Part shown: positions 25,587 through 59,429 of the stretch, piece after piece
Numbering within the stretch: position 1 is the stretch's first letter
How the letters are laid out: each line of letters starts with the position of its first letter
Origin: Anaeromyxobacter sp. Fw109-5
GTDB lineage: Bacteria > Myxococcota > Myxococcia > Myxococcales > Anaeromyxobacteraceae
NCBI RefSeq assembly: GCF_000017505.1
Contig: NC_009675.1
Coordinates: 3,357,001 to 3,421,000, forward strand
Length of the DNA stretch: 64,000 nucleotides
Direction: 5' to 3'
Notes under the pieces: model-generated
Told to the model about the DNA's origin: nothing
Databases searched by the model: none
Seen by the model: only the letters and a program-made list of their open reading frames with translations
Program-made: the position numbers and the translations under genes

Positions 25587-27556
25587 CGATAGAGCACCTG
25601 CGGGAGCCACAGCCCGATCGCCGGGAAGAGGTACAGGATCAGCACGGCGAACACCTGGATCGCCATGAACGGCATCATGCCGGCGAAGATCTGGTTGAGC
25701 GTCACGTGCTTCGGCGCGACGCCCTTCAGGTAGAACGCCGCCATCGCGACCGGCGGGGAGAGGAAGGCGGTCTGCAGGTTCAGCGCCACGAGCAGGCCGA
25801 AGAAGAGCGGGTCGATGTTGAAGTGGCCCAGCAGCGGGATGAAGATCGGCATGAAGATGACGATGATCTCCGTCCACTCCAGCGGCCAGCCGAGCAGGAA
25901 GATGATGGCCTGCGCGAGGAGCATGAACTGGAGGGGCGTCAGGTTCAGGCCGAGCACCCAGTGCTCGATGATCGCCTGGCCGCCGAGGAGCGCGAACGCG
26001 GCCGAGAAGATCGAGGAGCCGACGAACAGCCAGCACACCATGGCGGTCGTCTTCGCCGTCAGGAAGACCGACTCCTTGAGCACGCTCCACTTGAACTGAC
26101 GGTACGCGCCGGTGAGCAGCATCGCCCCCGCCGCGCCGAGCGCGGCCGCCTCGGTCGGCGTGGCCCACCCGAAGATGATCGACCCGAGCACCGCGAGGAT
26201 GAGCGCGGTGAGCGGGAAGAACGACGTGAGCAGCATCTTCAGGATCTCGAGCCGCTCGAAGGTGAAGATGCTGTAGTGGAAGGCGAGCAGCGCGACGCCG
26301 GCCGCGAGGGCGATCCAGAAGGCGAGCGGCACGGGCTTGCGCCCGGGCGCGGTCTCGACCTGCGCGCCCTCCGCCCGCTCCGTCTCCGCCTTCAGCGCCC
26401 CGCCCGGCGCCTCCGCGCCGGGCGGCTCGGCGACCGCGCCGGGCGGCTCCTCGACGCCGGGAGGCTCGGCCACCGCGGGCGCCTCGGCCCCGCCCGCGGG
26501 CGCGGCCTCCTCCGCGGGCGGCTCCTCGACCCCCTCGTAGACGAAGGCGTCGGCTCCGCCGCCCGTCTCCGCGATCTCCTCCAGCCCGCCGGTGTCGATG
26601 ACGACCGTCCGGGTGACGGCCTCGTAGACGACGAGGAAGGCGACCGCGCCGAAGATCGCCGGCAGGGCCGAGACGGCGAGCTGACCGGCGACCCACCGGC
26701 GCGGCGGATCGCCGGGCGCCGGACGGACGAGGGCGGAGACGAGCCGCGGCACCGCCCGGCGGTGCTCGCCGCCTGCGAGGGCGACGGCGCCCGCGGTGAG
26801 CGGCACCCGCCGCTCCTCCTCGGGCGGCATCGGCGCGAGGCGCGGCTTCAGCTTGGCGAGGACGACCACGTAGCCTATGTAGAGCCCCGCGAGCATGAGC
26901 CCGGGGAAGAACGCGCCCGCGTAGAGCTGGACGACCGACACGCCCGCGGTCGCCCCGTACAGGATGAGCATGACCGAGGGGGGGATGAGGATCCCCAGGC
27001 AGCCGCCGGCGGTGATCGCGCCCGCCGAGAGCTTGATGTCGTAGCCGGAGCGCAGCATCGCCGGCAACGCGAGCAGGCCCATGAGCGTGACGACCGCCCC
27101 CACGATGCCGGTCGCGGTGGCGAACAGCGCGCACGTCGCCAGCGTCGCGACCGCGAGCGAGCCGGGGATGAACGACATCGAGAGGTGCAGGCTCTTGAAG
27201 AGCTTCTCGATGAGGTTCGCCCGCTCGACCATGTAGCCCATGAACACGAACAGCGGCACGGCGATGAGGACGTCGTTCGTCATCGTCGCGTAGGTGCGCT
27301 GCACCATGAGGTCCAGCGTCTGCTGGACCGCGATGTCCGGGTTGACCCATCGATAGGCGAGCCACGCGAAGAGCACGCCCATGCCCATGAGCGTGAAGGC
27401 GGTCGGGAAGCCCAGCATGATGGCGACCACCACGAGCGAGAGCATCAGCAGCCCGAGGTGGCCCTGCGTCATCTGCGAGGGCGCCGGCATGATGATCACC
27501 GTCGCGAGGACGATGAGCCCCATGATCGTGAAGCCGAACAGGAGCTCCTTCCTCAC
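25583..27556 (-). CDS. dctM: TRAP transporter large permease (DctM) with a long acidic proline-rich insert
   Basis: 657 residues from GTG 27556, overlapping the dctQ stop (GTGA). The DctM pattern is clear in both halves: GFPTAFTLMGMGVLFAWLAYR, GCLGILIPPSVMLILYG and FGWATPTEAAALGA. Between them, at about residues 340-405, lies a low-complexity stretch rich in Glu, Pro, Ala and Gly (EEPPAEEAAPAGG, repeated EPPG), extending a protein that is usually about 430-450 residues. Large permeases of the mannitol/chloroaromatic-type or lactate TRAP group can be longer, but the insert is striking. DctM with DctQ uses a sodium gradient to import an organic acid delivered by DctP. Confidence 0.88.
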   Translation of the reverse strand: MRKELLFGFTIMGLIVLATVIIMPAPSQMTQGHLGLLMLSLVVVAIMLGFPTAFTLMGMGVLFAWLAYRWVNPDIAVQQTLDLMVQRTYATMTNDVLIAVPLFVFMGYMVERANLIEKLFKSLHLSMSFIPGSLAVATLATCALFATATGIVGAVVTLMGLLALPAMLRSGYDIKLSAGAITAGGCLGILIPPSVMLILYGATAGVSVVQLYAGAFFPGLMLAGLYIGYVVVLAKLKPRLAPMPPEEERRVPLTAGAVALAGGEHRRAVPRLVSALVRPAPGDPPRRWVAGQLAVSALPAIFGAVAFLVVYEAVTRTVVIDTGGLEEIAETGGGADAFVYEGVEEPPAEEAAPAGGAEAPAVAEPPGVEEPPGAVAEPPGAEAPGGALKAETERAEGAQVETAPGRKPVPLAFWIALAAGVALLAFHYSIFTFERLEILKMLLTSFFPLTALILAVLGSIIFGWATPTEAAALGAAGAMLLTGAYRQFKWSVLKESVFLTAKTTAMVCWLFVGSSIFSAAFALLGGQAIIEHWVLGLNLTPLQFMLLAQAIIFLLGWPLEWTEIIVIFMPIFIPLLGHFNIDPLFFGLLVALNLQTAFLSPPVAMAAFYLKGVAPKHVTLNQIFAGMMPFMAIQVFAVLILYLFPAIGLWLPQVLYR

Positions 27557-28185
27557 GGCTTCACCTCCTCGTGCTCCTTGCGCAGGACGACCTGGTCGAG
27601 CGCGGCGATGTCCTCGTCCTTGACGTGGACCATCTCCTTCAGCTTGTCGACGTCCACCTCCTCCACGTCCTCCTCGCGCGACGGCCACGCGCCGTCCCGG
27701 AGGGCGACGACGCAGCGGACGATCTCGACCACGCCCTGGAGCAGGATGAGCGCGCCCGCGATGGGGATGAACGCCTTGAACGGATAGATGGGCGGCCCGT
27801 CGACCGTGATGGTCGAGTGCTCGCGGATGAGCCAGGACTCCTTCGCGTAGTACCAGCCCGCGAAGACCATCGCGATCGAGCCGGGCACGAAGAAGACGAC
27901 GTACAGGAGGAGGTCGATGCTCGCCTGGACGCGCGGGGGGAAGAAGCCGTAGAGCACGTCGCCCCGCACGTGGCCGTTCTTCGCGAGGGTGTAGGCGCCC
28001 GCCATCATGAAGAGGACGCCGTAGCCCATGATCTGCGCGTCGAACGCCCAGGCGTGCGGGGTGTCGAAGAACTTCCGCGACAGCACCTCCCAGGTGATGA
28101 GCACGGTGAGCACGACGATGAGCCAGGCGAAGAGCTGGCCGATCCAGGTGGAGAGCTTGTCGACCGTGAGGAGGAGGCGCTGCAT
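27553..28185 (-). CDS. dctQ: TRAP transporter small permease (DctQ)
   Basis: 210 residues with four membrane helices (first at about 14-34, ending at about 165-180) and an acidic cytoplasmic tail (VEEVDVDKLKEMVHVKDEDI). DctQ-type motifs: LITWEVLSRKFFDTPHAWAFD and VRGDVLYGFFPPR. It pairs with DctM. It begins 7 bp after the dctP stop and overlaps dctM. The 40-residue charged tail is longer than in most DctQ proteins. Confidence 0.88.
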   Translation of the reverse strand: MQRLLLTVDKLSTWIGQLFAWLIVVLTVLITWEVLSRKFFDTPHAWAFDAQIMGYGVLFMMAGAYTLAKNGHVRGDVLYGFFPPRVQASIDLLLYVVFFVPGSIAMVFAGWYYAKESWLIREHSTITVDGPPIYPFKAFIPIAGALILLQGVVEIVRCVVALRDGAWPSREEDVEEVDVDKLKEMVHVKDEDIAALDQVVLRKEHEEVKP

Positions 28186-28192
28186 CGAGGTC

Positions 28193-29356
28193 CTAGCCCT
28201 TCTTCGCGGCGCCCTGCTTCTTGCCGAAGAAGTGGTTGTAGGCCATGCGGAAGTCGACGTTCGTGTCGTTCTGCCAGCGCGCGGCGCGCTGCGCGAACTT
28301 GCGCTGCGACTCGAGGACCTTCTTGAACATCGGGTTCTCGCTGGACCGCTTCTCCATCACGTCGTTCCAGATCTCGAGCTGCCGCTTCAGGATCGCGTCG
28401 GGGGTCTTGTAGAACTTCACCCCCTGCTTCTGCTGCATCTCCATGTAGTCGGTGGAGTAGCGATCGATCGCCTTCCACGACATGTCCGCGGACGAGGCCT
28501 GGACCGCGTAGGCGATGATGTTGCGGAGGTCCTGCGGCAGCGCCTTGTACTTGGTGCCGTTGAAGAGGATCTCGAACTGCTCCGAGCACTGGTGGAAGCT
28601 CTGGAGCATGCAGACCTTGGAGACGTCGGGGAACCCGAGGGCGCGGTCCGACGACGCGTTGTTGAACTCGGCGGCGTCGAGGAGTCCGCGGTCCATCGCC
28701 GGCACGATCTCCGCGCCCGGCAGCGCGTTCACCGCCGCGCCCAGGCCCGTGAAGATGTCGATGGACAGGCCGACGGTGCGGAACTTGAGCCCCTTCATGT
28801 CGTCGACCTTCGCGACCGGCTTCTTGAACCAGCCGAGCGGCTGCGTGGGCATCGGCCCGTACAGCATGGAGACGACGTCGAGGTTCAGCGACTTGTAGAC
28901 CTCGTCGATGAGGTCCTTGCCGCCGCCGTAGTAGTGCCAGGCGAGCAGCATGTTGGGATCCATCCCGAACTCCGGGCCCGAGCCCCACAGCGCGAGGGCG
29001 GTGTTCTTGCCGTACCAGTAGGCGACGACGCCGTGGCCTCCGTCGAGCGTCCCCTTCGCCACCGCGTCGAGCAGGTCGAACGCCTTCACGACCGCGCCGG
29101 CCGGCAGCACCTCGATCTTGAGGCGGCCGCCCGACATCTCGTTCACCTTCTTGGCGAAGTCGAGGGCGTACTCGTGGAAGATGTCCTTCGTGGGCCAGGT
29201 GCTCTGGAAGCGCAGCGTGGTCGGGGCCTGCGCCACGTGGATGGTGGGACCTGCGGCGACCGCGGCGCCGGCGGCGCCCAGGGCCGCCTTGCGCAGGAAG
29301 TCACGGCGGGAAGGCACCTTCGTCTCGGACTGCGCGCTCTTCGCGTTCTTCTTCAT
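28193..29356 (-). CDS. dctP: TRAP transporter substrate-binding protein, Tat-exported (TakP/DctP-like)
   Basis: 387 residues from ATG 29356. A Tat signal SRRDFLRKA at 16-24 precedes a hydrophobic alanine-rich stretch, so the protein is folded before export. The mature part is a TRAP solute receptor (TTLRFQSTWP, GLKFRTVGLSIDIF, AEFNNASSD), closest in feel to the TakP group that binds alpha-keto acids or lactate with a metal ion. With glcDEF downstream, a 2-hydroxy acid such as lactate or glycolate is the likely ligand. It is the first gene of the operon. Confidence 0.88.
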   Translation of the reverse strand: MKKNAKSAQSETKVPSRRDFLRKAALGAAGAAVAAGPTIHVAQAPTTLRFQSTWPTKDIFHEYALDFAKKVNEMSGGRLKIEVLPAGAVVKAFDLLDAVAKGTLDGGHGVVAYWYGKNTALALWGSGPEFGMDPNMLLAWHYYGGGKDLIDEVYKSLNLDVVSMLYGPMPTQPLGWFKKPVAKVDDMKGLKFRTVGLSIDIFTGLGAAVNALPGAEIVPAMDRGLLDAAEFNNASSDRALGFPDVSKVCMLQSFHQCSEQFEILFNGTKYKALPQDLRNIIAYAVQASSADMSWKAIDRYSTDYMEMQQKQGVKFYKTPDAILKRQLEIWNDVMEKRSSENPMFKKVLESQRKFAQRAARWQNDTNVDFRMAYNHFFGKKQGAAKKG

Positions 29357-29741
29357 TCTTCCGCTCCTCGTGCGGGTGAGCCGGTGGGTGGACGCCTGCG
29401 AAACACTTCCTTGGGACCGCGCACGACGGCCGGCAACGTACCGGCGGGGCGTCTTGGCGCATCCTCGGCCATGCCGCGGCGCGGCATGAGCCGTGTCGGC
29501 CTTCCCGGCCGCGGGCTGGACGCCTGAATGGGTGTAAGAGGCGCTGCGCGGAGGGCTCCGCGCAGCGTCGACCTTGGGTCTACTCGAGCGGCGGATGACG
29601 CTCGACCGTGGGAAGCCCCGAACGGCGCGCCGCTGCGGCGGGCGAGCCAGCGGTGCTCGACGGGTGTAACCGGTCGTCGGGTTCGCGGCTGGCCGCGCGG
29701 CTACCCGCCGGCTCGCGTTGCGGCCACCCTACGGCTGAGCG
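29357..29741. other. Intergenic region between dctP and the giant repeat protein, with a hairpin
   Basis: 385 bp without a convincing gene. The dctP promoter should lie at the left end. A 12-bp inverted repeat (CGCTGCGCGGAG at 29542-29553 and its complement at 29556-29567) ends about 175 bp past the stop of the giant gene. The hairpin's inner pairs must open to make a loop. It may terminate the giant transcript. The rest shows no structure I can support. Confidence 0.45.
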
Positions 29742-32700
29742 CTACTTGATCGCCAAGGGGGCTGGTCCCCCGTCGTTGTCGGCGTTCGTCAGCGACACCG
29801 TCGCGCTGGCCACGCTGTACAGAGGGTCCGTGCTCGCCGCCGACAGGTTCACGGCGTACGCGATCGGGCCGTCAGGCAGCGCGTCATCCACCCCGGTGAC
29901 CGTCACCGTCTGCGCGAGGTTCCAGTCCGCGGGCGTGAAGGTCACGGCCGCAGGCGCGACGGTGCCTTCGCCGGGGTTACTGCTCGTCAGCGAGACCACC
30001 ACGTCGGCGCTGGGCGGCGACGACAGCGTCAGCTGGAAGGTCGCCGTCCCGCCCGCCTCGGTCGTCACCAGGCCCGTCGACGGGCTCGCCATGAGCTGTC
30101 CCGCGGCGTCGTCGTCCGTGTTCGTCAGGGAGATGTCGCCCGGGTCGATCCCGCTGTAGCTCCCGTCCAGGCTCGTCGCCGCGCCGACGAGGACCGTGTA
30201 GAGCTGGTCGCCGTCGTTCACCAGGTCGTCGACGCCCGTGACCGTCACGGTCTGCGCCACGTTCCAGTTCGCCGCCGTGAACGTCAGCGGCGCCGGGGCG
30301 ACCGTGCCCTCCGTGGGGTCGCTCGACGTGATCGGGACCGTCACGTCCGACGTCGGCTCCGAGGTCAGCACCACCGTGAACGTGACCTGGAGCCCCGCCT
30401 CGGAGGTGGACAGCCCGCTCGGAGCGCTCACCGCGATCCCCGCCGCGTCGTCGTCGGCGTTGGTCACCGACACCGACCCGGTACGCCCGCCGTAGCCCGG
30501 GTCCGTGCTCGTCGCGGAGAGGTTCACGGCGTAGGCGATCGGTCCGTCCGCCACCGCGTCGTCCACCCCGGTGACCGTCACGGTCTGCGCCGCGTTCCAG
30601 TTCGCCGTCGTGAACGTCACGCTCGCAGGCGCGACGGTGCCCTCCGTCGGATCGCTGCTCGACACCGCCACCACCACGTCTGCGAGGGGCTGCGACGACA
30701 GCGTCAGCTGGAAGCTCGCCGTCCCGGCTGGCTCGCTCGTCGTCAGGCCCGTCGACGGGCTCGCCACCAGCCCCGCCGCGTCGTCGTCCGTGTTCGTGAA
30801 GGTGAGGTCCGCCGGATCCTTCCCGGCGTAGCCCGCGTCGGAGCTCGTGGCCGGCCCGATCGCGACCTGGTAGGTCTGATCGCCGTCGTCCACCGCGTCG
30901 TTCACGCCCGTCACGGTCACCGTCTGCGCGACGCTCCAGTTGGCCGCGGTGAACACCAGCGACGCGGGCGCGACCGCGCCCTCCGTGGTGTCGCTCGACG
31001 AGACCGGGACCGTCACCTCCGCGGTCGGCTGCGACGTCAGCACCACCGTGAAGGTGGCGGAGGCCCCCGCCTCCGACGTCGTGGTGGCGCTCGGCGCGCC
31101 GACCGCGATGCCCGCCACGTCGTCGTCCGTGTTCGTGAAGGTGAGGTCGGCCGGATCTCTGCCTGCGTACCCCGCGTCGGAGCTCGTCGCCGGCCCGATC
31201 GCGGCCCGGTAGGTCTGGCTGCCGTCTGCCACGAGGTCGTCGACCCCCGTCACCGTCACGGTCTGCGGCACGCTCCAGTTCGCCGCCGTGAACAGCAGCG
31301 ACGCAGGCGCGACCGTGCCTTCCGTGGGGTCGGTCGACGAGACCGGGACGGTGACGTCCGCGGTCGGCTGCGACGTCAGCACCACCGTGAAGGTGGCGGA
31401 CGTGCGCGTCTCGGACGTCGAGGTGGCGCTCGGCGCGCCGACCGCGATGCCCGCCACGTCGTCGTCCGTGTTCGTGAAGGTGAGATCGGCCGGATCCTTC
31501 CCGGCGTACCCCGGGTCGGCGCTGGTCGCCGGCCCGATCGCGGCCTGGTAGGTCTGGCTGCCGTCTGCCACGAGGTCGTCGACCCCCGTCACCGTCACGG
31601 TCTGTGGCACGCTCCAGTTGCTCGCCGTGAACAGCAGCGACGCAGGCGCGACCGTGCCCTCGGTGGTGTCGTTCGAGGAGACCGGGACCGTCACGTCGGC
31701 GGTCGGCTGCGACGTCAGCACCACCGTGAAGGTGGCGAAGGCCCCCGCCTCCGACGTCGTGGTGGCGCTCGGCGCGCCGACCGCGATCCCCGCCGCGTCG
31801 TTGTCGCCGTTGGTCACCGACACCGAGCCGGTGCGGCCACCGTAGCCAGGATCCGTGCTCGTCGCGGACAGGTTCACGGCGTACGCGATCGCGCCGTCCG
31901 CCAGCGCGTCGTCCGCGCCGGTGATCGTCACCGTCTGCGCGGTGCTCCAGTTGGCCGCCGTGAACGTCACGCTCGCAGGGGCGACGGTGCCCTCCGTCGC
32001 GTCGCTGCTCGAGAGCGCGACCACCACGTCCGCGAGCGGCTGCGTCGCCAGCGCCACCTGGAAGCTCGCCGTCCCGCCCGCCTCGGTCGTCATGAGGCCC
32101 GTCGTCGGGCTCGCCACGAGCGCCGCGGTGTCGTCGTCGGTGTTCGTCAGGGTGATGTCGCCCGGATCGACCCCGTTGTAGCTCGGGTCCGCGCTGCTCG
32201 ACGCGCCGACGAGGACCGTGAAGAGCTGGTCGCCGTCGTCCACCAGGTCGTCGACGCCCGTCACCGTCACGGTCTGGGCCACGTTCCAGTTGGCCGCCGT
32301 GAACGTCAGCGGCGCCGGGGCGACCGTGCCCTCGGTGAGGTCGCCCGACGTGATGGGAACCGTCACGCTCGCCGTCGGCTGCGAGGCGAGCACCACCGTG
32401 AACGTGACCTGGAGCCCTGCCTCGGAGGTGAACAACCCGCTCGCGGGGCTCACCGCGATCCCAGCCGCGTCGTCGTCGGCGTTCGTGACCGACACGGTCC
32501 GGACAGCCCCGTTGTACAGGGAGTCCGTGCTCGTCGCCGACAGGTTCACGGCGTACGTGATGGGACCGTCCGCCACCGCGTCGTCCACCCCGGTGACCGT
32601 CACGGTCTGCGCCGTGTTCCAGTTGGCCGAGGTGAACGTCACGCTCGCAGGCGCGACGGTACCCTCCGACGCGTCGCTGCTCGACACCGCCACCACCACG

Positions 32701-35700
32701 TCGGCGCTCGGCTGCGACGACAGCGAGAGCTGGAAGCTCGCTGACCCTCCTGCCTCGGTCGTCGTCAGACCCGTGGCCGGGCTCGCCACGAGCCCTGCCG
32801 CGTCATTGTCCGTGTTCGTGAAGGTGAGGTCCGCCGGGTCGCTCCCGGCGTAGCCCGGGTCGGCGCTCGTCGCCGGCCCGATCGCGGCCCGGTAGGTCTG
32901 GTCCCCGTCCACCGCAGGGTCGTCGACGCCCGTGACCGTCACGGTCTGCGGCGCGTTCCAGTTGGTGGCCGTGAACACCAGCGTCGCGGGAGCGACCGTG
33001 CCCTCCGTGGTATCGGTGGAGGAGACCGGGACCGTCACGGCCGAGGTCGGCTCCGAGGTCAGCACCACCGTGAAGGTGGCGGACGTCCCCGCTTCGGACG
33101 TCGAGGTGGCGCTCGGCGTGCCGACCGTGATCCCCGCCGCGTCGTTGTCGTTGTTCGTCGCCGACACCGACCCGATTCGGCCGCCGTAGCCGGGATCCGT
33201 GCTCGTCGCGGACAGGTTCACGGCGTAGGCGATCGCGCCGTCCACCACCGCGTCGTCCACTCCGGTGACCGTCACGGTCTGCGCAGAGTTCCAGTTGCCC
33301 GCCGTGAAGGTCACCGTCGCAGGCGCGACGGTGCCCTCGGTGGTGTCGCTGCTCGAGAGCGCGACCACCACGTCGGCGCTCGGCTGCGACGCGAGCGTCA
33401 GCTGGAAGCTCGCCGTCCCGCCCGCCTCGGTCGTGACGAGGCCCGTCGACGGGCTCGCGATCAGCCCCGCCACGTCGTTGTCCGTGTTCGTGAAGGTGAG
33501 GTCCGCCGGATCCCTCCCGGCGTACGCCGCGTCGGCGCTGGTCGCCGGCCCGAGCGCGGCCAGGTAGCTCTGATCGCCGTCCACCGCCGCGTCGTCGACG
33601 CCCGTCACCGTCACGGTCTGCGGCGCGTTCCAGTTGGCCGTCGTGAACACCAGCGAGGCAGGCGCGACCGTCCCCTCCGTGGTGTCGCTCGACGACACCG
33701 GGACCGTCACGCTCGCCGTCGGCTGCGACGTCAGCACCACCGTGAAGGTGGCGGACGTCCCGGCCTCGGACGTCGCGGTGGCGCTCGGCGCGCCGACCGC
33801 GATCCCCGCAGCGTCGTCGTCAGTGTTCGTCACCGGCACGGCCCGGGTGGCCCCGTCGTACAGGGTGTCCGTGCTCGTCGCGGAGAGGTTCACGGCGTAG
33901 GCGATCGCGCCGTCCGCCACCGCGTCGTCCACGCCGGTGACCGCCACGGTCTGCGCCACGTTCCAGTTCGCGACCGTGAAGGTCACGGTCGCGGGCGCGA
34001 CGGTGCCCTCCGTGGAGTCGCTGCTCGACACCGCGACCACCACGTCGGCGCTCGGCTGCGACGTCAGCGTGAGCTGGAAGCTCGCCGTCCCGCCCGCCTC
34101 GGTCGTCGTGAGGCCCGTCGACGGGCTCGCCGCGAGGCCCACCGCGTCGTTGTCCGTGTTCGTGAAGGTGAGGTCCGCCGGATCCTTTCCGGCGTACCCC
34201 GCGTCGGCGCTCGTCGCGGGCCCGATCGCGGCCAGGTAGCTCTGGTTGCCGTCCACCGCCGCGTCGTCGACGCCCGTGACCGTCACGGTCTGCGCCACGT
34301 TCCAGTTCGTCGCCGTGAACACCAGCGACGCAGGCGCGACAGTGCCTTCCGTCGTGTCGCTCGAGGCCACCGGGACCGTCACCGTCGCCGTCGGCTGCGA
34401 GGTCAGCACCACCGTGAAGGTGGCGGACGTCCCGGCCTCGGACGTCGAGGTGGCGCTCGGCGCGCCGACCGCGATCCCCGCCAGGTCGTCGTCGCCGTTC
34501 GTCACCGACACCGCGCTCGTGAGCCCGCCGTACAGGGCGTCCGTGCTCGTCGCCGACAGGTTCACGGCGTACGCGATCGCGCCGTCCGCCACCGCGTCGT
34601 CCACCCCGGTGACCGTCACCGTCTGCGCCACGTTCCAGTTGGCCGAGGTGAACGTCACGCTCCCAGGCGCCACGGCGCCCTCGGTCGGGTCGCTGCTCGA
34701 GAGCGCGATCACCACGTCGGCGCTCGGCTGCGACGACAGCCTGAGCTGGAAGCTCGCCGCCACGGCCGGCTCGCTCGTCACCAGGCCCGCCGACGGGCTC
34801 GCCACGAGCCCCGCCGCGTCGTCGTCGGTGTTCGTCAGCGACACCGTGCCGGTACGCCCGGCGTACTGACCGTCCGTGCTCGTCGCGGACAGGCTCACGG
34901 CGTAGGCGATCGCGCCGTCCACCGAGGCGTCATCCACTCCGGCGACCGTCACGCTCTGCGCCACGTTCCAGTTGGCCGCCGTGAACGTCACGGTCGCAGG
35001 GGACACGGTGCCCTCCGTCGTGTCGCTGCTCGCGAGCGCGATCACCACGTCGGCGACCGGCTGCGAGGCCAGCGTCACCTGGAAGCTCGCCGTCCCGCCC
35101 GCCTCGGTCGTCGTCAGGCCCGTCGACGGGCTCGCCACGAGCCCTGCCGCGTCGTCGTCGTCGTTCGTGACGGACACGGTCCCGACAGCCCCGTTGTACA
35201 GGGCGTCCGTGCTCGTCGAGGCCAGGCTCACGGTGTACGGGATCGCGCCGTCCGCCACCGCGTCGTCGACCCCCGTGATCGTCACGGTCTGCGGCAGGTT
35301 CCAGCTCGCCGCCGTGAACGTCACGGTCGCAGGCGCGACGGTGCCCTCGGTCGCGTCGCTGCTCGACACAGCGACCACCACGTCGGCGAGCGGCTGCGAC
35401 GCCAGCGTCACCTGGAAGCTCGCCGTCCCGCCCCCCTCGTTCGTCACGAGGCCGGTCGACGGGCTCGCCACGAGCCCCGCCGTGTCGTCGTCCGTGTTCG
35501 TCAGGGTGACGTCGTTCGGGTCGATCCCGGAGTAGCCCGGGTCCGAGCTGATCGCCGCGCCGACGAGGGCGGAGAAGAGCTGATCGCCGTCGTCCAGCAC
35601 GTCGTCGACGCCCGTGACCGTCACGGTCTGCGGCGTGTTCCAGTTGGCCGCCGTGAACAGCAGGGAAGCCGGGGCGACCGTGCCCTCCGTGATGTCGCTC

Positions 35701-38700
35701 GAGGACACCGGGACCGTCACGTCCGACGTCGGCTGCGAGGTCAGCGCCACCGTGAAGGTGATTGAGACCCCCGCCTCCGAGGTGTACAGCCCGCTCGGAG
35801 CGCTCACCGCGATCCCGGCCGCGTCGTCGTTGCTGTTCGTCACCGACACCGCGCCGGTGCGGGTGTTGTAGCCCGGGTCCGTGCTCGTCGCGGACAGGTT
35901 CACGGTGTACGCGACCGCACCGTCCGCCACCGCGTCGTCCACCCCGGTGACCGTCACGGTCTGCGCCGCGTTCCAGTTGGTGGCCGTGAAGGTCACGGTG
36001 GCGGGGGCGACGGTACCCTCCGTGGAGGCGCTGCTCGACACCGCGACCACCACGTCGGCGGTCGGCTGCGACGCCAGCGTGAGCTGGAAGCTCGCCGTCC
36101 CGCCTGCCTCGGTCGTCACGAGGCCCGTCGACGGGCTCGCCACGAGCCCCGCCGCGTCGTCGTCGATGTTCGTGAAGGTGAGGTCCGCCGGATCCCTCCC
36201 GGCGTACCCCGCGTCGGCGCTCGTCGCCGGCCCGATCGCGGCCTGGTAGGTCTGGTCGCCGTCGTCCACCGCGTCGTCGACGCCGGTGACCGTCACCGTC
36301 TGCGCCACGCTCCAGTTGCTCGCCGTGAACACCAGCGACGCGGGGGCGATCGTGCCCTCCGTGGCGTCGCTCGAGGAGACCGGGACCGTCACGTCGGAGG
36401 TGGGCTGCGAGGTCAGCGCCACCGTGAAGGTGGCGGACGTCCCCGCCTCGGACGTCGAGGGGGCGCTCGGCGCGCCGACCGCGATCCCCGCCACGTCGTC
36501 GTCCGTGTTCGTGAAGGTGAGGTCCGCCGGATCGCCGGGCCTGCCGGCGTAACCCGGGTCGGCGCTGGTCGCCGGCCCGATCGCGACCAGGTAGGTCTGG
36601 TCGCCGTCCGCGACGAAGTCGTCGGCGCCCGTGACCGTCACCGTCTGCGGCACGTTCCAGTTGGTCGTGGTGAACACCAGCGGCGCGGGGGCGACCGTGC
36701 CCTCCGTGGGGTCGCTCGAGGTGATCGGGACCGTCACGTCCGACGTCGGCTGCGAGGTCAGCACCACCGTGAAGACAGCGGCCCCGCCCACCTCGGAGGT
36801 CGAGGTGGCGCTCGGAGCACCGACGGCGATCCCGGCCACGTCGTTGTCGGCGTTCTCGACCGCCACGGCCCAGGCGCGGCCGCCGTAGCCGGGATCCGTG
36901 CTCGCCCCGGCGAGGGTCACGGCGTACGCGATCGCGCCGTCGGCCACGAGGTCGTCCACCCCGGTGATCGTCACGGGCTGCGGCACGTTCCAGTTCGCCG
37001 CCGTGAACGTCACGGTCGCAGGCGCGACGGTGCCCTCGGTGGTGTCGCTGCTCGCCAGCGCCACCACCACCTCGGCGAGCGGCTCCGAGGTCAGCGCCAG
37101 CCCGAAGCTCGCCGTCCCGCCCGCCTCGGTGGTCACCAAACCCGTCGACGGGGTGGCCGCGAAGCCCGCCACGTCGTCGTCCGCGTTGGTCAGGGACGCG
37201 GCCGCGGTCAGGCCGTTGTACAGCGGGTCCGAGCTCGTCGCGGACAGGTTCACGGCGTAGGCGATCGGGCCGTCCGCCACGAAGTCGTCCTTCGCGGCGA
37301 CCGTCACGCTCTGCGGCACGTTCCAGTTCGTCGCCGTGAACGTCACGCTCACGGGCGCGACGGTGCCCTCGGTCGTGTCGCTGCTCGCCAGCGTCACCAC
37401 CACGTCCGCGAGCGGCTCCGAGCCGAGCGTCAGGCCGAAGGTCGTCGTCCCGTCCGGCTCGGCCGTGACCAGGCCCGTCGACGGGCTGGGGAGGAGCTCC
37501 GCCGTGTCGTCGTCGGTGTTCGTCGCCGAGACGCTGCCGGTGAGCCCCTGGTACTTGGGGTCGGTGCTGCTCGAGGACAGCGCGATCGAGTACCCGATGT
37601 CGCCCTCGTCCACGAAGTCGTTCACGCCGGTGACGGTCACGGTCTGGGCCACGTTCCAGTTCGCCGGCGTGAAGGTGACGCTCGCCGTGACCGTGCCCTC
37701 GGTGGTGTCGCTGCTCGTCAGCGCGACGACCACGTCGGCGAGCGGCTCGGACGTCAGCGCCAGCTGGAACGTCGCCGTGCCCCCCGCCTCCGTGGTGACC
37801 AGGCCCGTCGTCGGGCTCGGCGCGAGCCCCGCCGTGTCGTCGTCGGTGTTCGTGAACTCCACGTCGGCGGGGTCGATGCCGTGGTAACGCGGGTCGCTGC
37901 TCGTCGCGGGCGCGGTCACGATCGTGTACGCCACGTCGTCGTCGTCGACCCAGTCGTTCGCGCCCGTGACGGTCACGACCTGCGGCGTGCTCCAGTTGGA
38001 CGGCGTGAAGGTGATGCTCGGAGACGAGACCGTGCCCTCGGTCGTGTCGCTGCTCGAGAGCCCCACCACGACGTCGGCGGCCGGCGGCTTGTTCAGGACG
38101 ACGTCGAACGTGGCCGTTCCGCCCGCCTCGGTGGTCACCAGGCCGGACGTCGGGTTCACGAGGACCTGGTGGCCGCGCAGATCCCACGTACCCCTGACCC
38201 CTCCCTCGGCACCGCAGTCCGCGGTGTAAGCGCCGCGGATGAAGTCCTTCTCGGCGTACTGGCCCGGGTCGAAGGTCCCGGCGCACCGGGCGAGGTTGAT
38301 ACCCATCGTGTCGAACACGGCGGGCATGAACCGCGTCGTCACGCGGCCGTCGGTCCCGGTGCACGTCAACGTCCAGCCCACGCCGGTGCCCCAGCGGAAC
38401 ACGGACCTCACCTTGTCGATCTCGGCGGCGTTCGCCCAGGACTTCGTGGTCTGGTCGGGGACGCAGGTCTCGGTCCCCAGCGTCATCGTCGCGGGGACGG
38501 TGAGCGTGCCGGCCAGCACGTACGTCGTGAGCGACGTGGATTCGTCCCGGAGGTAGACCGTCGCCCGGCCCTGGGCGTCGAAGGGCACGTTGAGGTTCTG
38601 CGCGAGGCGGATCGGTCCGTCCGCCAGCGGCTCTCCCGTCTGCCAGGTGACGGTCCAATCGCTGAAGTGAGTCGTCTTGACGCTGATGGTGTTCGCGCCG

Positions 38701-39158
38701 AGATCTCGCGTCGCGGGCCCCACCTTCATCCAGAATCCGTTCCGATCCTGGGACTCGACGCCGACGTTGTCGATGCTGGTGCCGATCGGATATTGCTCCG
38801 GCCCCTTGAACGTGATCGTGACGGGGGCGGTGAAGCTCGCGCCCTCGGGCCCGAGGCGGAAGGCGCCGGCGACGGCGCCACGCGCCGTGTTCGTGATCGG
38901 CGTGATCGTGAACTCGGTCGGGGAGGCGACGGCACCGGCCGGGAACGAGATGGAGATCGCGCCGTCCGCGGCCGAGAGCGTCCCTCCCTCCGGCGTGATC
39001 GTGTCCGAGATGGGCGGGCCGGACGGAACGCCGGGCTTGGTGGGTACGGGAACGAGCGCGTCGTTCCCGTGATCGTTCGATGCTTCGATGCCACACGCGA
39101 GCGCGATGACCAGCAGCACCGTCGAGGCGCCACGGCGGTGCTGCTGAGTCAAGGGCAT
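29742..39158 (-). CDS. Giant secreted Calx-beta-like repeat protein, predicted lipoprotein, 3,138 residues
   Basis: Starts at ATG 39158 (MPLTQQHRRG); an in-frame TTG at 39167 has a better-placed ribosome site (GAGGTGG) and would add three residues. Residues 1-27 form a signal peptide ending ALAC, a possible but imperfect lipobox. Residues about 45-165 resemble a ZU5 domain (SISFPAGAV, PVTITFKG). A linker with six cysteines follows (about 235-325). From about residue 330 to the C-terminus there are 25 tandem beta-sandwich repeats of 111-113 residues, each with SSDTTEGTVAP, NWNVAQTVTVTGVDD and a DDD/DND end that could bind calcium. There is no C-terminal anchor. It is probably an adhesion, filament or surface-coat protein. 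The repeats lack cysteine and are very poor in lysine. Confidence 0.85.
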   Translation of the reverse strand: MPLTQQHRRGASTVLLVIALACGIEASNDHGNDALVPVPTKPGVPSGPPISDTITPEGGTLSAADGAISISFPAGAVASPTEFTITPITNTARGAVAGAFRLGPEGASFTAPVTITFKGPEQYPIGTSIDNVGVESQDRNGFWMKVGPATRDLGANTISVKTTHFSDWTVTWQTGEPLADGPIRLAQNLNVPFDAQGRATVYLRDESTSLTTYVLAGTLTVPATMTLGTETCVPDQTTKSWANAAEIDKVRSVFRWGTGVGWTLTCTGTDGRVTTRFMPAVFDTMGINLARCAGTFDPGQYAEKDFIRGAYTADCGAEGGVRGTWDLRGHQVLVNPTSGLVTTEAGGTATFDVVLNKPPAADVVVGLSSSDTTEGTVSSPSITFTPSNWSTPQVVTVTGANDWVDDDDVAYTIVTAPATSSDPRYHGIDPADVEFTNTDDDTAGLAPSPTTGLVTTEAGGTATFQLALTSEPLADVVVALTSSDTTEGTVTASVTFTPANWNVAQTVTVTGVNDFVDEGDIGYSIALSSSSTDPKYQGLTGSVSATNTDDDTAELLPSPSTGLVTAEPDGTTTFGLTLGSEPLADVVVTLASSDTTEGTVAPVSVTFTATNWNVPQSVTVAAKDDFVADGPIAYAVNLSATSSDPLYNGLTAAASLTNADDDVAGFAATPSTGLVTTEAGGTASFGLALTSEPLAEVVVALASSDTTEGTVAPATVTFTAANWNVPQPVTITGVDDLVADGAIAYAVTLAGASTDPGYGGRAWAVAVENADNDVAGIAVGAPSATSTSEVGGAAVFTVVLTSQPTSDVTVPITSSDPTEGTVAPAPLVFTTTNWNVPQTVTVTGADDFVADGDQTYLVAIGPATSADPGYAGRPGDPADLTFTNTDDDVAGIAVGAPSAPSTSEAGTSATFTVALTSQPTSDVTVPVSSSDATEGTIAPASLVFTASNWSVAQTVTVTGVDDAVDDGDQTYQAAIGPATSADAGYAGRDPADLTFTNIDDDAAGLVASPSTGLVTTEAGGTASFQLTLASQPTADVVVAVSSSASTEGTVAPATVTFTATNWNAAQTVTVTGVDDAVADGAVAYTVNLSATSTDPGYNTRTGAVSVTNSNDDAAGIAVSAPSGLYTSEAGVSITFTVALTSQPTSDVTVPVSSSDITEGTVAPASLLFTAANWNTPQTVTVTGVDDVLDDGDQLFSALVGAAISSDPGYSGIDPNDVTLTNTDDDTAGLVASPSTGLVTNEGGGTASFQVTLASQPLADVVVAVSSSDATEGTVAPATVTFTAASWNLPQTVTITGVDDAVADGAIPYTVSLASTSTDALYNGAVGTVSVTNDDDDAAGLVASPSTGLTTTEAGGTASFQVTLASQPVADVVIALASSDTTEGTVSPATVTFTAANWNVAQSVTVAGVDDASVDGAIAYAVSLSATSTDGQYAGRTGTVSLTNTDDDAAGLVASPSAGLVTSEPAVAASFQLRLSSQPSADVVIALSSSDPTEGAVAPGSVTFTSANWNVAQTVTVTGVDDAVADGAIAYAVNLSATSTDALYGGLTSAVSVTNGDDDLAGIAVGAPSATSTSEAGTSATFTVVLTSQPTATVTVPVASSDTTEGTVAPASLVFTATNWNVAQTVTVTGVDDAAVDGNQSYLAAIGPATSADAGYAGKDPADLTFTNTDNDAVGLAASPSTGLTTTEAGGTASFQLTLTSQPSADVVVAVSSSDSTEGTVAPATVTFTVANWNVAQTVAVTGVDDAVADGAIAYAVNLSATSTDTLYDGATRAVPVTNTDDDAAGIAVGAPSATATSEAGTSATFTVVLTSQPTASVTVPVSSSDTTEGTVAPASLVFTTANWNAPQTVTVTGVDDAAVDGDQSYLAALGPATSADAAYAGRDPADLTFTNTDNDVAGLIASPSTGLVTTEAGGTASFQLTLASQPSADVVVALSSSDTTEGTVAPATVTFTAGNWNSAQTVTVTGVDDAVVDGAIAYAVNLSATSTDPGYGGRIGSVSATNNDNDAAGITVGTPSATSTSEAGTSATFTVVLTSEPTSAVTVPVSSTDTTEGTVAPATLVFTATNWNAPQTVTVTGVDDPAVDGDQTYRAAIGPATSADPGYAGSDPADLTFTNTDNDAAGLVASPATGLTTTEAGGSASFQLSLSSQPSADVVVAVSSSDASEGTVAPASVTFTSANWNTAQTVTVTGVDDAVADGPITYAVNLSATSTDSLYNGAVRTVSVTNADDDAAGIAVSPASGLFTSEAGLQVTFTVVLASQPTASVTVPITSGDLTEGTVAPAPLTFTAANWNVAQTVTVTGVDDLVDDGDQLFTVLVGASSSADPSYNGVDPGDITLTNTDDDTAALVASPTTGLMTTEAGGTASFQVALATQPLADVVVALSSSDATEGTVAPASVTFTAANWSTAQTVTITGADDALADGAIAYAVNLSATSTDPGYGGRTGSVSVTNGDNDAAGIAVGAPSATTTSEAGAFATFTVVLTSQPTADVTVPVSSNDTTEGTVAPASLLFTASNWSVPQTVTVTGVDDLVADGSQTYQAAIGPATSADPGYAGKDPADLTFTNTDDDVAGIAVGAPSATSTSETRTSATFTVVLTSQPTADVTVPVSSTDPTEGTVAPASLLFTAANWSVPQTVTVTGVDDLVADGSQTYRAAIGPATSSDAGYAGRDPADLTFTNTDDDVAGIAVGAPSATTTSEAGASATFTVVLTSQPTAEVTVPVSSSDTTEGAVAPASLVFTAANWSVAQTVTVTGVNDAVDDGDQTYQVAIGPATSSDAGYAGKDPADLTFTNTDDDAAGLVASPSTGLTTSEPAGTASFQLTLSSQPLADVVVAVSSSDPTEGTVAPASVTFTTANWNAAQTVTVTGVDDAVADGPIAYAVNLSATSTDPGYGGRTGSVSVTNADDDAAGIAVSAPSGLSTSEAGLQVTFTVVLTSEPTSDVTVPITSSDPTEGTVAPAPLTFTAANWNVAQTVTVTGVDDLVNDGDQLYTVLVGAATSLDGSYSGIDPGDISLTNTDDDAAGQLMASPSTGLVTTEAGGTATFQLTLSSPPSADVVVSLTSSNPGEGTVAPAAVTFTPADWNLAQTVTVTGVDDALPDGPIAYAVNLSAASTDPLYSVASATVSLTNADNDGGPAPLAIK
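29745..38170 (-). repeat. 25 tandem protein-coding repeats in two alternating subfamilies
   Basis: The gene body repeats with a period of about 333-339 bp. Type A starts LVASPSTGLVTTEAGGTASF and has DGAIAYAVNLSATSTD. Type B starts IAVGAPSATSTSEAGTSATF and has DGDQTY and DPADLTFTNTD. Order from the N-terminus: A-like 1-4 (the first has a B-like second half), B 5-6, A7, B8, A 9-11, B12, A13, B14, A15, B16, A17, B18, A19, B 20-22, A23, B24, A25. Repeats 11-20 form an AB dimer unit of about 672 bp. Confidence 0.85.
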
Positions 39159-39853
39159 GGCGCGCAAGTTACCACCTCTTTTGGCGCACGTGACCGTGCG
39201 GCCCCGCTCGCGAGAAAGGCGAAAGGATTGCGCGAGCACCCGCGGAAGCTCGCCGTCACCGTCCGCAAACCAAGCCAACAGTCGCACCGGCCCAAAGCTT
39301 CCACGCGGCCAGAAGTGCTGGGCTTTCACCCGGGCTGATTGCGGCGGAGCGCCACATTGTCCCCAATGACCCACCCCCGCGGCAGATAGCTGCGGCGCGG
39401 TTCGGTCCTCGAGTCGATCGGCGACCTCAGGGCATCGGAACCGCCGCGAGGAGCGTCCGCCGTGTGCGACGACGGAGCAGGATGTGCGTGACGCGGGACG
39501 GCAAACCATCACGATCGGTGAACCGTCCGCCGTGGCGCGACGCGCGCGAAGGTACCTTGCACCACGGGTACCCGTAGACTCGGGCGTGCACGAGCTGCGT
39601 CTCTGCGACGAGGGGGGAGGCTGCCGGCAAGGACCTGGACGACCGAGGCGACATCCGGCTCGACCTGCACACAAACGCCGCCGCGAGACCACCTCGCCCC
39701 CGATCGTCCACGGAGGCGACGGTGCGTGGAGTCGGCTCCCGGTCGCGCGAGGACCGCGGAAGCGGGCTCCCTCCGGCGGCGCCTGTTCCCCCGGCGGGGC
39801 GGCTTCCTCCCGGGGGCTCGCCTGGACGTCCGCCCTGCTCCCACCTTGGCGCC
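39159..39853. other. 695-bp intergenic region between the giant gene and the PrsW gene
   Basis: No convincing gene on either strand. The first 250 bp (about 39160-39420) are somewhat less GC-rich than the flanks and should hold promoters for the two divergent genes. No clear sigma-54 or sigma-70 boxes were found by eye. No structure I would defend. Confidence 0.4.
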
Positions 39854-40546
39854 ATGGGGGAGCTCCTCTTCTTCGCCAGCTGTGCCGCGTCGGCCGTGGC
39901 GTGGGCCTCGCTCGGGGCGCGCCGCGCCGGCGACGGTCGGCGCAGCCCGATCGCGTACGCGCTCTTCGGCGGGGCCGCGGCGTTCGGGCTCGCCGTGCTC
40001 GCCTATGAAGCGCTCGCGGCGGCGGGCGTTCGCGTCGAGTGGGAGCGGCTCGTCCGGGGCGAGCTCGCCGTGGCGATCGCGCTGGCCGTCGCGGTCGGCC
40101 TCGTCGAGGAGGGGGCGAAGCTCGCGGGGATCCTGCTCGTCGTGGAGCGCGGCTGGCGGACCTCGGCGGTGCTCGGGGCCTCCGCCGGCGTGTCGGCCGG
40201 GTTCGCCGCGCTCGAGGCGCTCACCACGCTGCACGGGGCGGCCTCGCCGGTCGCGCTCGCGCGCGTGGCGCTCGGCCCCGCCGCGCACGCCCTGCTCGCG
40301 CTGCCCCTCGGGCTGGCCGTCGCGGCGGACGGCGGAGCGGGACGCCGCCCCTGGGCGACCGTCGCGGTCGGCCTCGCCGTGTCGGCGACGCTGCACGCCA
40401 CCGGAGATCTGAGCCTCGCGCGCGCGCCCGCGGGCCAGCTCGGCTACGGCCTCGCGCTCCTCGCGGCGCCGCTCTGGGTCTTCGTGCGCGCCCGCCTCGC
40501 GGCGCGGTCGCCCGCCCCCGGCCGCAGGGCGATGGCGGCTACCTGA
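39854..40546 (+). CDS. PrsW-family intramembrane protease
   Basis: 230 residues from ATG 39854, with six to eight membrane helices. The PrsW/CPBP-like active-site elements are visible: EEGAK at 85-89, FAALE at 117-121, His145 (GPAAH) and HATGD at 181-185. PrsW cleaves anti-sigma factors within the membrane in Bacillus; bacterial relatives act on other membrane proteins or have unknown targets. It lies divergently from the giant secreted protein. No anti-sigma gene is adjacent. The 3' end overlaps the stop of the converging esterase gene. Confidence 0.78.
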   Translation: MGELLFFASCAASAVAWASLGARRAGDGRRSPIAYALFGGAAAFGLAVLAYEALAAAGVRVEWERLVRGELAVAIALAVAVGLVEEGAKLAGILLVVERGWRTSAVLGASAGVSAGFAALEALTTLHGAASPVALARVALGPAAHALLALPLGLAVAADGGAGRRPWATVAVGLAVSATLHATGDLSLARAPAGQLGYGLALLAAPLWVFVRARLAARSPAPGRRAMAAT

Positions 40547-41666
40547 CCCCGGCCGCCACGTACGCCGCCACCTCGCGCCAGACCTGCTCGAACTGCGCGC
40601 GGTCGAAGCCGCTGCCGCTCGTGAGCCAGTCGAAGTGCGGCGGCACGCGCGTCGGATGGTGGAAGTGGCCGATCACGTCCAGGTGATCCGCCCACGCCGC
40701 GTGGACCACGTCACCCCAGAGCTGGCTGAGCGTCGGGACCATCCCGTCGTTCGCGCGCACGTCGGTGCGCCAGCCGTACGCGCGCCGCAGCACGGCGGCC
40801 TGCGCGCGCGTGAGGCGCGGCTGCCGCTCCGCGGGGGTGCGAGAGGCGATCCGGTACAGCGCCACGTACACCGCGTGCGTGGTCTGCGCGTAGGGGTCGA
40901 GCCCCGCGCCGATCGCGGAGCGGAGCCCCGGCGGGCGGGCGCGCGTGAGGACGCAGCCGTAGCGCACGCCCGGGCGATCCTGGGTGGCCGCGTTGAACAC
41001 GTCCATCGAGCCGGGCGTGATCTGGCCGACGAGATCCTGATCCTTGCCCAGGCTCGAGAAGAACGACTCGATCTCCACGCGCCGATCGCGCGAGAAATCG
41101 GCGAGCAGCTCGTGCATGAGCTGCTGGACGAGGCTGCCCGGCGGGGCCTCGCGGCGGCGGAGGAGGCGGGCCACGCGGAGCCCGAGGCCGATGGGGAGCC
41201 TCCCTGCGCGGAGCACGTAGATGGTGAGCAGCGACAGCAGCCGGAGCACCTGCTGCCCGAGCAGGCTGTTGAAGAGGTGCGCCACGGGCGTGCCGTGGTG
41301 GGGCGTCGAGACGCTGACGACGGTGCGGACCGCGCGCGCGTAGCGCTCCACCTCGCGCGGCGAAGGGAGCGACACCTCGGGCGTGACGACGAGCCGCGCG
41401 TCGAGGCCGCCGCTCGAGTGGCCGATCACCGAGACCGTCCCGCCCTCCGCGTCCACCGCCTCGGCGATGCTCTCCACGAGCCGCGCGGCGCGGACCCGCA
41501 GGGACGCCGTGGGGACGGTCGGCACCACGCGGACCGAGCCCCGTACGCCTAGCGCGGGACCGATCTCCGACAGGTAGTCGCGGACGTGCCCGAAGTAGGC
41601 GAAGTCGCCGAGGTTCGCGAACCCGAAGAAGCCGGGGACGAGCAGGAGGTGGTGCGGCCCGTTCAC
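40539..41666 (-). CDS. Alpha/beta-hydrolase lipase/esterase
   Basis: 375 residues from GTG 41666. The oxyanion segment LLLVPGFFGF (7-16) and the nucleophile elbow GHSSGG (Ser84) identify an alpha/beta hydrolase of the triacylglycerol-lipase/PGAP1-like kind, and DHLDVIGHFHHP near 340-355 supplies the catalytic His. No signal peptide is present. It would cleave lipid or ester bonds in the cytoplasm or at the membrane. Its stop codon overlaps the PrsW stop region by 8 bp (converging genes). Confidence 0.78.
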   Translation of the reverse strand: MNGPHHLLLVPGFFGFANLGDFAYFGHVRDYLSEIGPALGVRGSVRVVPTVPTASLRVRAARLVESIAEAVDAEGGTVSVIGHSSGGLDARLVVTPEVSLPSPREVERYARAVRTVVSVSTPHHGTPVAHLFNSLLGQQVLRLLSLLTIYVLRAGRLPIGLGLRVARLLRRREAPPGSLVQQLMHELLADFSRDRRVEIESFFSSLGKDQDLVGQITPGSMDVFNAATQDRPGVRYGCVLTRARPPGLRSAIGAGLDPYAQTTHAVYVALYRIASRTPAERQPRLTRAQAAVLRRAYGWRTDVRANDGMVPTLSQLWGDVVHAAWADHLDVIGHFHHPTRVPPHFDWLTSGSGFDRAQFEQVWREVAAYVAAGVR

Positions 41667-41892
41667 GCGGGGCAATCTACCCGAGCGAGCGGCCCCACCG
41701 GCCTCCCGGGCGTGGCGCGAGGCGCCGCCCCCCCGAACGAGCGCGCACCGCGCCCGCCTGACCCGCACGCGGCCGGGTCCAGCTTCACGCCGGTTCCGGG
41801 CCGGCATCGCGTCGGGGACGCGGGTGTACCGGGTCGCGTGACGTCGGGTCGCCGCCACGGTGGCGCTCCGCGCGGATGCCCTGCGGGCGGGA

Positions 41893-42204
41893 TCAGACGA
41901 GCACGTCGCGCAGGGAGGCGTCGCGATCGAAGATCGCCTTCGCGTACGGGCAGAGCGGGACGAGGCGGGTGCCGCTCGCCCGCGCCCAGGCGACCGCGGC
42001 GTCCACCAGCCGGCGCGCGACCCCCTGACCGCGCAGCGCGTCCGACACCTGCGTGTGCTGGAGAAGGGCGCGGTCGGCTCCCTCGCGCTCGTAGGCAAGC
42101 TCCGCGACGCGGCGGCCGCCCTGCTCGACGTAGAACGCCCCCCACCGACCCTCCTCCTCCTGCCGCACGTCCAGCCCGCCGGCCTCCACGTTCACCTCGC
42201 TCAT
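41893..42204 (-). CDS. Small GNAT-type N-acetyltransferase (YjdJ-like)
   Basis: 103 residues from ATG 42204, with GGAG just upstream. The acetyl-CoA site reads VSDALRGQGVARRLVDAAVAWARA, followed by VPLCPYAKAIFDRD, the pattern of the small GNAT_2/YjdJ group (family about 95-110 residues). The substrate is unknown. It is transcribed divergently from the hybrid kinase at 42322. Confidence 0.82.
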   Translation of the reverse strand: MSEVNVEAGGLDVRQEEEGRWGAFYVEQGGRRVAELAYEREGADRALLQHTQVSDALRGQGVARRLVDAAVAWARASGTRLVPLCPYAKAIFDRDASLRDVLV

Positions 42205-42321
42205 GCTCCAGGAGTAAGGCTCGGGCGCCCGCGCCGCACGCCTGACGGCGGCGGCCTGGAATGTGACGCGTCCCTGACCCAGGGGTATCATCGACCACAC
42301 CTGCAGCGGAGGTGTTCCGAC

Positions 42322-44193: not shown

Positions 44194-44235
44194 ACGTCCG
44201 ATCCCGAAGCCGACGAGCGAAGCGAGTCCGCCGGG

Positions 44236-44347
44236 GCGCCATCGCGTTCGCGGCGAAGGCGCCCGCGATGGCGCAGGGGACCCGGCGAGCCAGGGTGGGG
44301 CTGCACACGCCGAGCTCGGCTCGGCGGGGCGGGGGCGCAGCCCCCGT
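44236..44347 (-). repeat. Dispersed intergenic repeat, copy B, with 11-bp hairpin
   Basis: Positions 44319-44347 are the reverse complement of 5704-5732 (29 identical bases). Within the same element, GCGCCATCGCG (44236-44246) pairs perfectly with CGCGATGGCGC (44264-44274). It follows the hybrid kinase stop and may serve as a terminator. It fills most of the gap 44194-44410. Confidence 0.55.
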
Positions 44348-44378
44348 TAGACGCCGCGCCCCGTCCGGAAATGCGTTA

Positions 44379-44407
44379 AACCCTCGCGCCGACACCGCCC
44401 GAGGGTT
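44379..44407 (+). promoter_or_regulatory. Inverted repeat sequestering the kbl ribosome site
   Basis: AACCCTCG at 44379-44386 is complementary to CGAGGGTT at 44400-44407 across a 13-nt loop. The right arm contains the kbl Shine-Dalgarno (GAGGG at 44401-44405), six bases before ATG 44411. The folded mRNA would hide the ribosome site. Confidence 0.45.
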
Positions 44408-44410
44408 CCC

Positions 44411-45604: not shown

Positions 45605-45616
45605 GAGGGACCATCG

Positions 45617-46648: not shown

Positions 46649-46709
46649 ACGCGCCGCGGGCGATCCCGGTCCGCTCGGGGTTGTCGAAGGTGCGCGGCCC
46701 GGGGGCGCG

Positions 46710-47108
46710 TCAGCCCGAGAGCGGGTCCTCGCCCTCGGTCCACGACGGCAGCACCCGGTCGTCGAGCTGGAAGTTCTCGCCGTCGTGCTCGGTGAAGACG
46801 ACGTAGACGCTCCGCTTCGGCACGCGCCAGGTCTTCTCCAGCTCGTCCATCACCGCGAGGGCGAGGCGGCGCTTCTGGTCGGCGGTGCGCCCGCGGCGGA
46901 TGTCCGCGTCGAGGAACGCGATCCCCTGCTCCGGCCGCTCGGCCCTCCCGAACACGAGGTCCTCCCGGCCGTAGGCGCGGAAGGTGATGCCGATGTGATC
47001 GGTGCCCGTGTCCATGATCTTCGCGAAGTGCCCCACGACGGCCTCCGCGAAGCGGCGCTTCTCCTCGGGCGTGGGGCTGAAGTTCAGGTCGAAGGAGAGG
47101 TGGGGCAT
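46710..47108 (-). CDS. Tautomerase/MIF-superfamily protein
   Basis: 132 residues from ATG 47108. After Met removal the N-terminus is Pro (MPHLSFDLNFSP), the catalytic base of the tautomerase superfamily. The beta-alpha-beta pattern is repeated: TPEEKRRFAEAVVGHFAKIM and TADQKRRLALAVMDELEKTW, as in a fused 4-oxalocrotonate-tautomerase pair or MIF-like fold. The substrate is unknown. It is a single-gene unit facing tdh. Confidence 0.75.
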   Translation of the reverse strand: MPHLSFDLNFSPTPEEKRRFAEAVVGHFAKIMDTGTDHIGITFRAYGREDLVFGRAERPEQGIAFLDADIRRGRTADQKRRLALAVMDELEKTWRVPKRSVYVVFTEHDGENFQLDDRVLPSWTEGEDPLSG

Positions 47109-59428: not shown

Positions 59429-59429
59429 G

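Follow-up and report, generated by a model that had tools for sequence, protein, structure and literature searches.

Anaeromyxobacter sp. Fw109-5, a metal-breathing soil bacterium, carries on its single contig of 5,277,990 bases a gene for a protein with 25 tandem repeats, and the locus raises the question of what such a protein does and how its repeats came to stand in their present order. We analyzed a stretch of 64,000 nucleotides that includes the gene, referred to here as the window. The first-pass annotation had called a protein of 3,138 residues, and we found the open frame where it had been placed, on the minus strand, read from 39158 down to 29742. The same frame stays open further upstream, with a GTG at 39692; we preferred the ATG at 39158 as the start because the signal peptide and an aligned cysteine then fall directly at the N-terminus. 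From there the gene encodes a lipoprotein-type signal, a weak ZU5-like domain, a domain with four conserved cysteines, and 25 Ig-fold, Calx-beta-like repeats (Table 1). Both the repeat family and the overall architecture are ordinary, the same repeats being common in bacteria. Neither an obviously foreign composition (G+C 0.69-0.72 in the gene, 0.70-0.75 in its flanks) nor a viral origin was indicated, viral contigs yielding no relative. The genome also holds a second gene, at G000:C1:3534934-3535266, with an open frame of 1,074 aa and a Calx-beta match of 38.8 bits, above the cut-off.

Table 1. Features of the array gene and its surroundings (positions in the window), and the kinds of tail borne by related heads.
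Feature	Position	Strand	Basis or remark
Whole gene, 3,138 aa	29742..39158	-	Open frame and translation; GC3 of the open frame 0.93
N-terminal signal with lipobox-type Cys (MPLTQQHRRGASTVLLVIALAC)	39093..39158	-	Cys aligned in 17/17 heads
ZU5-like domain, about residues 50-171	38646..39011	-	PF00791, 16.6 bits
Second head domain, four conserved Cys, about residues 177-328	38175..38630	-	Alignment; no Pfam match
Repeat 1, generic type	37836..38177	-	Closest to repeats from other phyla (67-69% identity)
Repeats 2-25, classes A, B, C	29745..37835	-	Delimitation, identities, tree
Repeats 11-20, strict alternation A / (B or C)	31458..34817	-	Repeat delimitation and shuffling
B-A-C-A unit, copy 1 (R6-R9)	35151..36494	-	Identities and shuffling
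B-A-C-A unit, copy 2 (R16-R19)	31797..33140	-	Identities and shuffling
B-A-C-A unit, copy 3 (R22-R25)	29745..31118	-	R6-8 vs R22-24 DNA identity
Segment without DNA match in sisters G003/G006	29453..39788	.	Slot there: head gene of a different subfamily, inverted
Left flank, TRAP transporter DctP	28193..29356	-	PF03480; syntenic with G006
Left flank, DctM	25583-27688	-	PF06808
Right flank, DUF676-like esterase	40539..42098	-	PF05057, 21.9 bits; syntenic with G003/G006
Tail: Cys-rich repeats, about 50 aa each, in some followed by a C-terminal region			e.g. G003, G006, G007, G009
Tail: ten Big_9/cadherin repeats			G002 (by Pfam), G005 (by sequence)
Tail: short, Cys-rich			G004a, G010, G023 and others

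The head of 328 residues is conserved among relatives. The lipobox positions -4 to -1 read IALA, followed by the cysteine, a motif that we take to fit the broad lipobox pattern. By its signal peptide with lipobox cysteine the protein is a predicted bacterial lipoprotein, probably acylated, and the conservation of that cysteine in every aligned head speaks for the lipid anchor that had been proposed as a possibility. On the suggested ZU5-like head the scores were mixed: the array protein stayed below the PF00791 cut-off of 21 bits, but two homologues passed it (L029, 22.8 bits; L021, 22.9 bits). The four-Cys domain was present in 17 of 195 genomes of the phylum. A single-sequence structure model of the head (pLDDT 38) was useless.

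The 25 repeats, each of 110-115 residues, follow one another directly end to end, and with R1 written as H their type order is H AAA BBACA AABABABACA BBBACA. Class A comprises R2-4, 7, 9-11, 13, 15, 17, 19, 23 and 25; class B comprises R5, 6, 12, 14, 16 and 20-22; and R8, 18 and 24 form a third class, C, which the first-pass annotation had merged into B. Its two-type scheme was right in that A and B differ consistently, with no residue in common at 17 alignment columns, but it missed C. Mean amino acid identity was 0.72, 0.83 and 0.78 within A, B and C, respectively, compared to 0.51 for A against B and 0.68 for B against C. A repeat tree, run as a check on A and B as distinct types together with about 180 repeats of other bacteria, recovered A, B and C as monophyletic (0.984, 0.856 and 0.96), thus placing A and B in separate clades (0.98 and 0.86 when rounded). 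B and C joined (0.974) together with two repeats of a genome of the same order, G105, and A was placed elsewhere in the tree. Given this placement, and best foreign matches of about 55-68% identity, A and B resemble foreign repeats at least as much as they resemble each other. Models of A and B separated the A and B repeats of the window by about 80-110 bits, whereas 667 other repeats formed a continuum in the same scores, 90% of them falling within about 26 bits.

R1 had been read as an A/B hybrid, a reading that we abandon because R1 groups with the generic repeats of other phyla; it looks like an unspecialised form of the domain. Its generic-model score of 154.7 bits is among the highest, with the C repeats and R14 scoring alike. 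The generic bacterial repeats (AGITVxPTSGLxTTEAGG...TNTDND; at least 502 confirmed matches in many phyla), to which type R1 belongs, share the length and motifs of the array, but they usually occur as arrays of one homogeneous class each, while the classes here are interspersed. In a comparison of 33 array entries with at least eight repeats, two of them apparently one and the same array, none showed balanced and interspersed classes as clearly as the present one. The nearest other interspersed case is L146, a gammaproteobacterial array of eight repeats in two partly interspersed classes.

Searched as a whole, the protein matched Calx-beta (PF03160) in 11 stretches at 74 bits, against a cut-off of 27 bits, but none of the ten single repeats tested reached that cut-off, the best scoring 19.2 bits. 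A model of the R14-R15 dimer (pLDDT 97, pTM 0.79) matched CBD1 of NCX1 (3gin, Z 10.3, 107 aligned residues, 3.4 Å) and the CBD1-2 pair (3us9, Z 10.3, 217 aligned residues, 8.6 Å). Pilus chaperones and MSP domains tied with these matches in the fold search, so we describe the model as an Ig sandwich compatible with Calx-beta. The Calx-beta identity claimed for the repeats thus agrees with the whole-protein score and with the presence of NCX1 CBD1 among the fold matches, but not with the scores of single repeats. No convincing solved homologue of the protein was found in a search by sequence.

The likeness to CBD1 and CBD2 of NCX1 and CALX lies in the Ig fold and in an E...D...DD...DDD pattern of acids at the apex; the differences are an identity of about 20% over one domain, the sub-threshold Pfam scores of the ten single repeats, and the lack of an acid at the E454 position. 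The E, D, DD, D and DDD/DND positions, which would form the apical Ca2+ site, are retained in nearly all 25 repeats. The residue that we take, from a by-eye alignment, to occupy the NCX E454 position is Q in B and C and mostly I in A. The A repeats also lack the acid neighbouring this position, and the Ca2+ sites may therefore be partial. Where most B and C repeats have Asp, the A repeats have Ala or Pro, except R2, which retains the generic acid ('DGDIGY', compared to the 'DGAIAY' type). The prediction from these residues is that A repeats bind fewer ions.

The order of the classes had been described as a strict AB alternation over R11-20, arising from duplication of the AB pair as a unit. 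The actual string is ABABABACAB, so that the alternation holds only when C is counted as B. When the same letters were shuffled, 1.9% of the shuffles had a longest alternation of at least 10 (p 0.019); for the number of type changes p was 0.064, which makes the alternation alone modest evidence. The B-A-C-A unit, in contrast, occurs three times and holds all three C repeats, an arrangement seen in 0.09% of shuffles (0.0009, post hoc). At the DNA level, R6-8 and R22-24 share 87.8% identity across 1,050 nt, and a second block, 968 nt long and lying around R11-R13, matches the one 672 nt further on at about 88%. The identity of two repeats also predicts that of the repeats that follow them (lag 1 r 0.40, permutation p 0.009). 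Since the block matches are longer than two repeats and neighbours share a history, we conclude that blocks of several repeats were copied. Duplication of a multi-repeat unit was therefore correctly proposed, but AB as the sole unit gives way to B-A-C-A plus A-B runs. A recent expansion was not supported, as the closest pair, R12/R14, shares only 91.7% DNA identity and near-identical copies were absent from the array; fourfold-site identity in the duplicated blocks was mostly 0.74-0.86, compared to 0.50 by chance. The A, B and C classes would have formed first, possibly from a generic repeat like R1, and the array would then have grown in this lineage by duplication of blocks of several repeats.

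Head matches were found in 20 of 60 related genomes, including all well-assembled members of the genus, and this genome was the only one of the 60 with a Calx-beta array on the head. The tails in the relatives, Cys-rich or of Big_9/cadherin repeats, are unrelated to the array, and an A-B dimer query in the rest of family f1 returned no match. The open-licence literature searched, in the portions available, held no report of the head family.

We compared the surroundings of the gene with those in two sister genomes, G003 and G006. The DNA at 24002-29452 and 39789-47000 of the window is 80-90% identical to that of G006, and most of it also aligns with G003. The left flank aligns as far as 29452 in G006, the right flank from 39789 in G006 and from 39795 in G003, and the intervening 10.3 kb are unaligned with the sister species; remnants of the other allele were sought in this segment, and it had no DNA match in G003 or G006. 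In both sisters the slot is occupied by an oppositely oriented head gene whose tail is Cys-rich and whose head is just 34% identical. The flanking DctP is 93% identical in G006, and G003 lacks this gene. The G006 slot also carries an HNH endonuclease gene (L025 11637-12953, minus strand; PF01844), and a related sequence with no Pfam match lies in the window at 58331-59554 (minus strand), about 19 kb away. Integration at a tRNA was discarded, the window having no tRNA. In the head tree, the head of the window grouped with G004a/G007a (0.998) and not with the syntenic genes, and a search for the neighbours of the window beside the G007 and G004 heads found none at a syntenic place. Two histories would fit equally: reciprocal loss from a tandem pair in opposite orientation, such as survives in G007 with the heads about 8.6 kb apart, or the replacement of one allele by another.

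On balance we lean slightly towards a fibrillar-adhesin-type outer-membrane lipoprotein with an exchangeable, probably Ca2+-stiffened stalk. The putatively acylated head, ZU5-like and four-Cys domains together, would be the family-conserved anchoring or docking module. The 25 Ig-fold domains would form a C-terminal stalk, roughly 100 nm long and probably given stiffness by Ca2+ bound at the acidic apices between domains, and this stalk would attach the presumably surface-exposed protein, and with it the cell, to matrix, to surfaces or to other cells. The stalk would be the exchangeable part, the same head bearing Cys-rich or Big_9 repeats in relatives. This reading draws on the lipobox cysteine shared by all 17 heads, the three tail kinds on a shared head, the whole-protein Calx-beta match, the R14-R15 model with its NCX matches, the acids kept in nearly all repeats, and the precedent of BapP. 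BapP of Pseudoalteromonas tunicata combines Calx-beta and BIg_9 repeats in one adhesin named as Ca2+-dependent (PMC12153261). Its Calx-beta-matching repeats likewise fall into several classes, with Ca2+ predicted at the linkers (PMC12153261), and Big_9 repeats, which it also has, are a tail kind in the relatives here. BapP has an N-terminal beta-propeller and a Sec signal (PMC12153261), whereas our protein has a lipoprotein head, and one repeat family in three interspersed classes.

Fibrillar adhesins, as described in PMC8286594 and PMC9210967, are long surface proteins that combine a stalk of numerous Ig-like repeats with a distinct module at the end, and a single module with differing stalk types is a known theme among them. 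The 25 repeats provide such repeated stalk domains. The present protein differs in its putative N-terminal lipid anchor and in its lack of a known adhesive domain: a Pfam scan of the whole protein found none, which counts against an adhesin, as do the single-repeat Calx-beta scores, the generality of the Ig sandwich and the non-acidic residue at the E454 position. The same scan gave no RTX nonapeptide match (HemolysinCabind) of the kind sought for an RTX/T1SS adhesin, and a weak CBM_20 match (26 bits) lies inside the repeats and is probably spurious.

Other readings have to be weighed against this one. We consider it improbable that the protein, instead of forming an anchored stalk, is released or periplasmic and serves as a matrix- or polysaccharide-binding scaffold. 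Binding to polysaccharide or to one another is within the capacity of tandem Ig or cadherin-like arrays (Cab proteins, cited in PMC12153261), and a C-terminal anchor was not seen, but the conserved cysteine of the heads favours lipid anchoring. A different matter is whether the A/B/C order is a mere by-product of slippage and unequal crossing-over, with no function hanging on it. This concerns the order only, is compatible with an adhesin, and in our estimation falls somewhat short of an even chance. Block duplications account for both B-A-C-A and the alternation, and most other arrays lack such an order, yet the classes are sharply distinct and not a continuum, recent homogenisation was not seen, and selection on two surfaces could also be at work.

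The cytochromes near the head genes of relatives suggest a further role. For ten head genes, spread over seven genomes, the distance to a homologue of one 26-haem cytochrome is 3.0-13.0 kb; for two others it is longer (G011, 23.6 kb; G009, 45.1 kb). The clusters inspected encode 26- and 16-haem proteins and, in most of them, a 6-haem protein, and in the two cases tested the 6-haem protein matched OmcS (1.4e-113 in the genome of the window, 2e-108 in G007); OmcS homologues in Anaeromyxobacter are known (PMC10954620). The G007 cluster also encodes a PPIC isomerase and a GNA1162-like lipoprotein. The head could be an accessory to extracellular electron transfer of the OmcS type, perhaps as a surface lipoprotein by which cytochrome filaments are positioned or the cell is kept on the mineral, with the stalk setting only reach or partner and the present gene keeping its job away from the cytochromes. 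We regard this as rather unlikely, although it is compatible with the adhesin reading: the link is lost in the genome of the window, whose cytochrome cluster lies 1.3 Mb from the head, the cluster of G003/G006 is on another contig than the head, gene neighbourhood is not function, and counts from related genomes are not independent. A more far-reaching reading, which we hold to be less likely than not, is that the head defines an undescribed surface-lipoprotein family of Anaeromyxobacteraceae OmcS-type nanowire clusters with exchangeable stalks (Cys-rich, Big_9 or Calx-beta), and that the present gene may have left its cluster for an allele-swapping slot whose alleles differ in subfamily, orientation and stalk. 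The OmcS-type clusters (26-, 16- and 6-haem) beside heads are L062-L064, L059, L061, L066, L068, L070 and L072, and that of the genome of the window (L215 3394-15501, outside the window) has no head gene. G007 (L062/L063/L064) and G004 (L066/L068) each have two paralogous OmcS-type clusters with one head gene each; the two head genes of G007 lie between its clusters and point towards each other.

What gives this locus its interest is that a conserved head bears differing stalks, that a syntenic gene has been replaced, and that relatives have their heads near OmcS-type clusters. With its three classes, the array lends itself to the question of whether Ca2+ affinity and stiffness vary among alternating Calx-beta-like domains. 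The link between head and OmcS offers a candidate, open to test, for the means by which metal-respiring cells cling to minerals or arrange their cytochrome filaments. Since one head bears stalks of three unrelated kinds, and two of these kinds occupy the same syntenic slot in sister species, stalk exchange is visible between close relatives.
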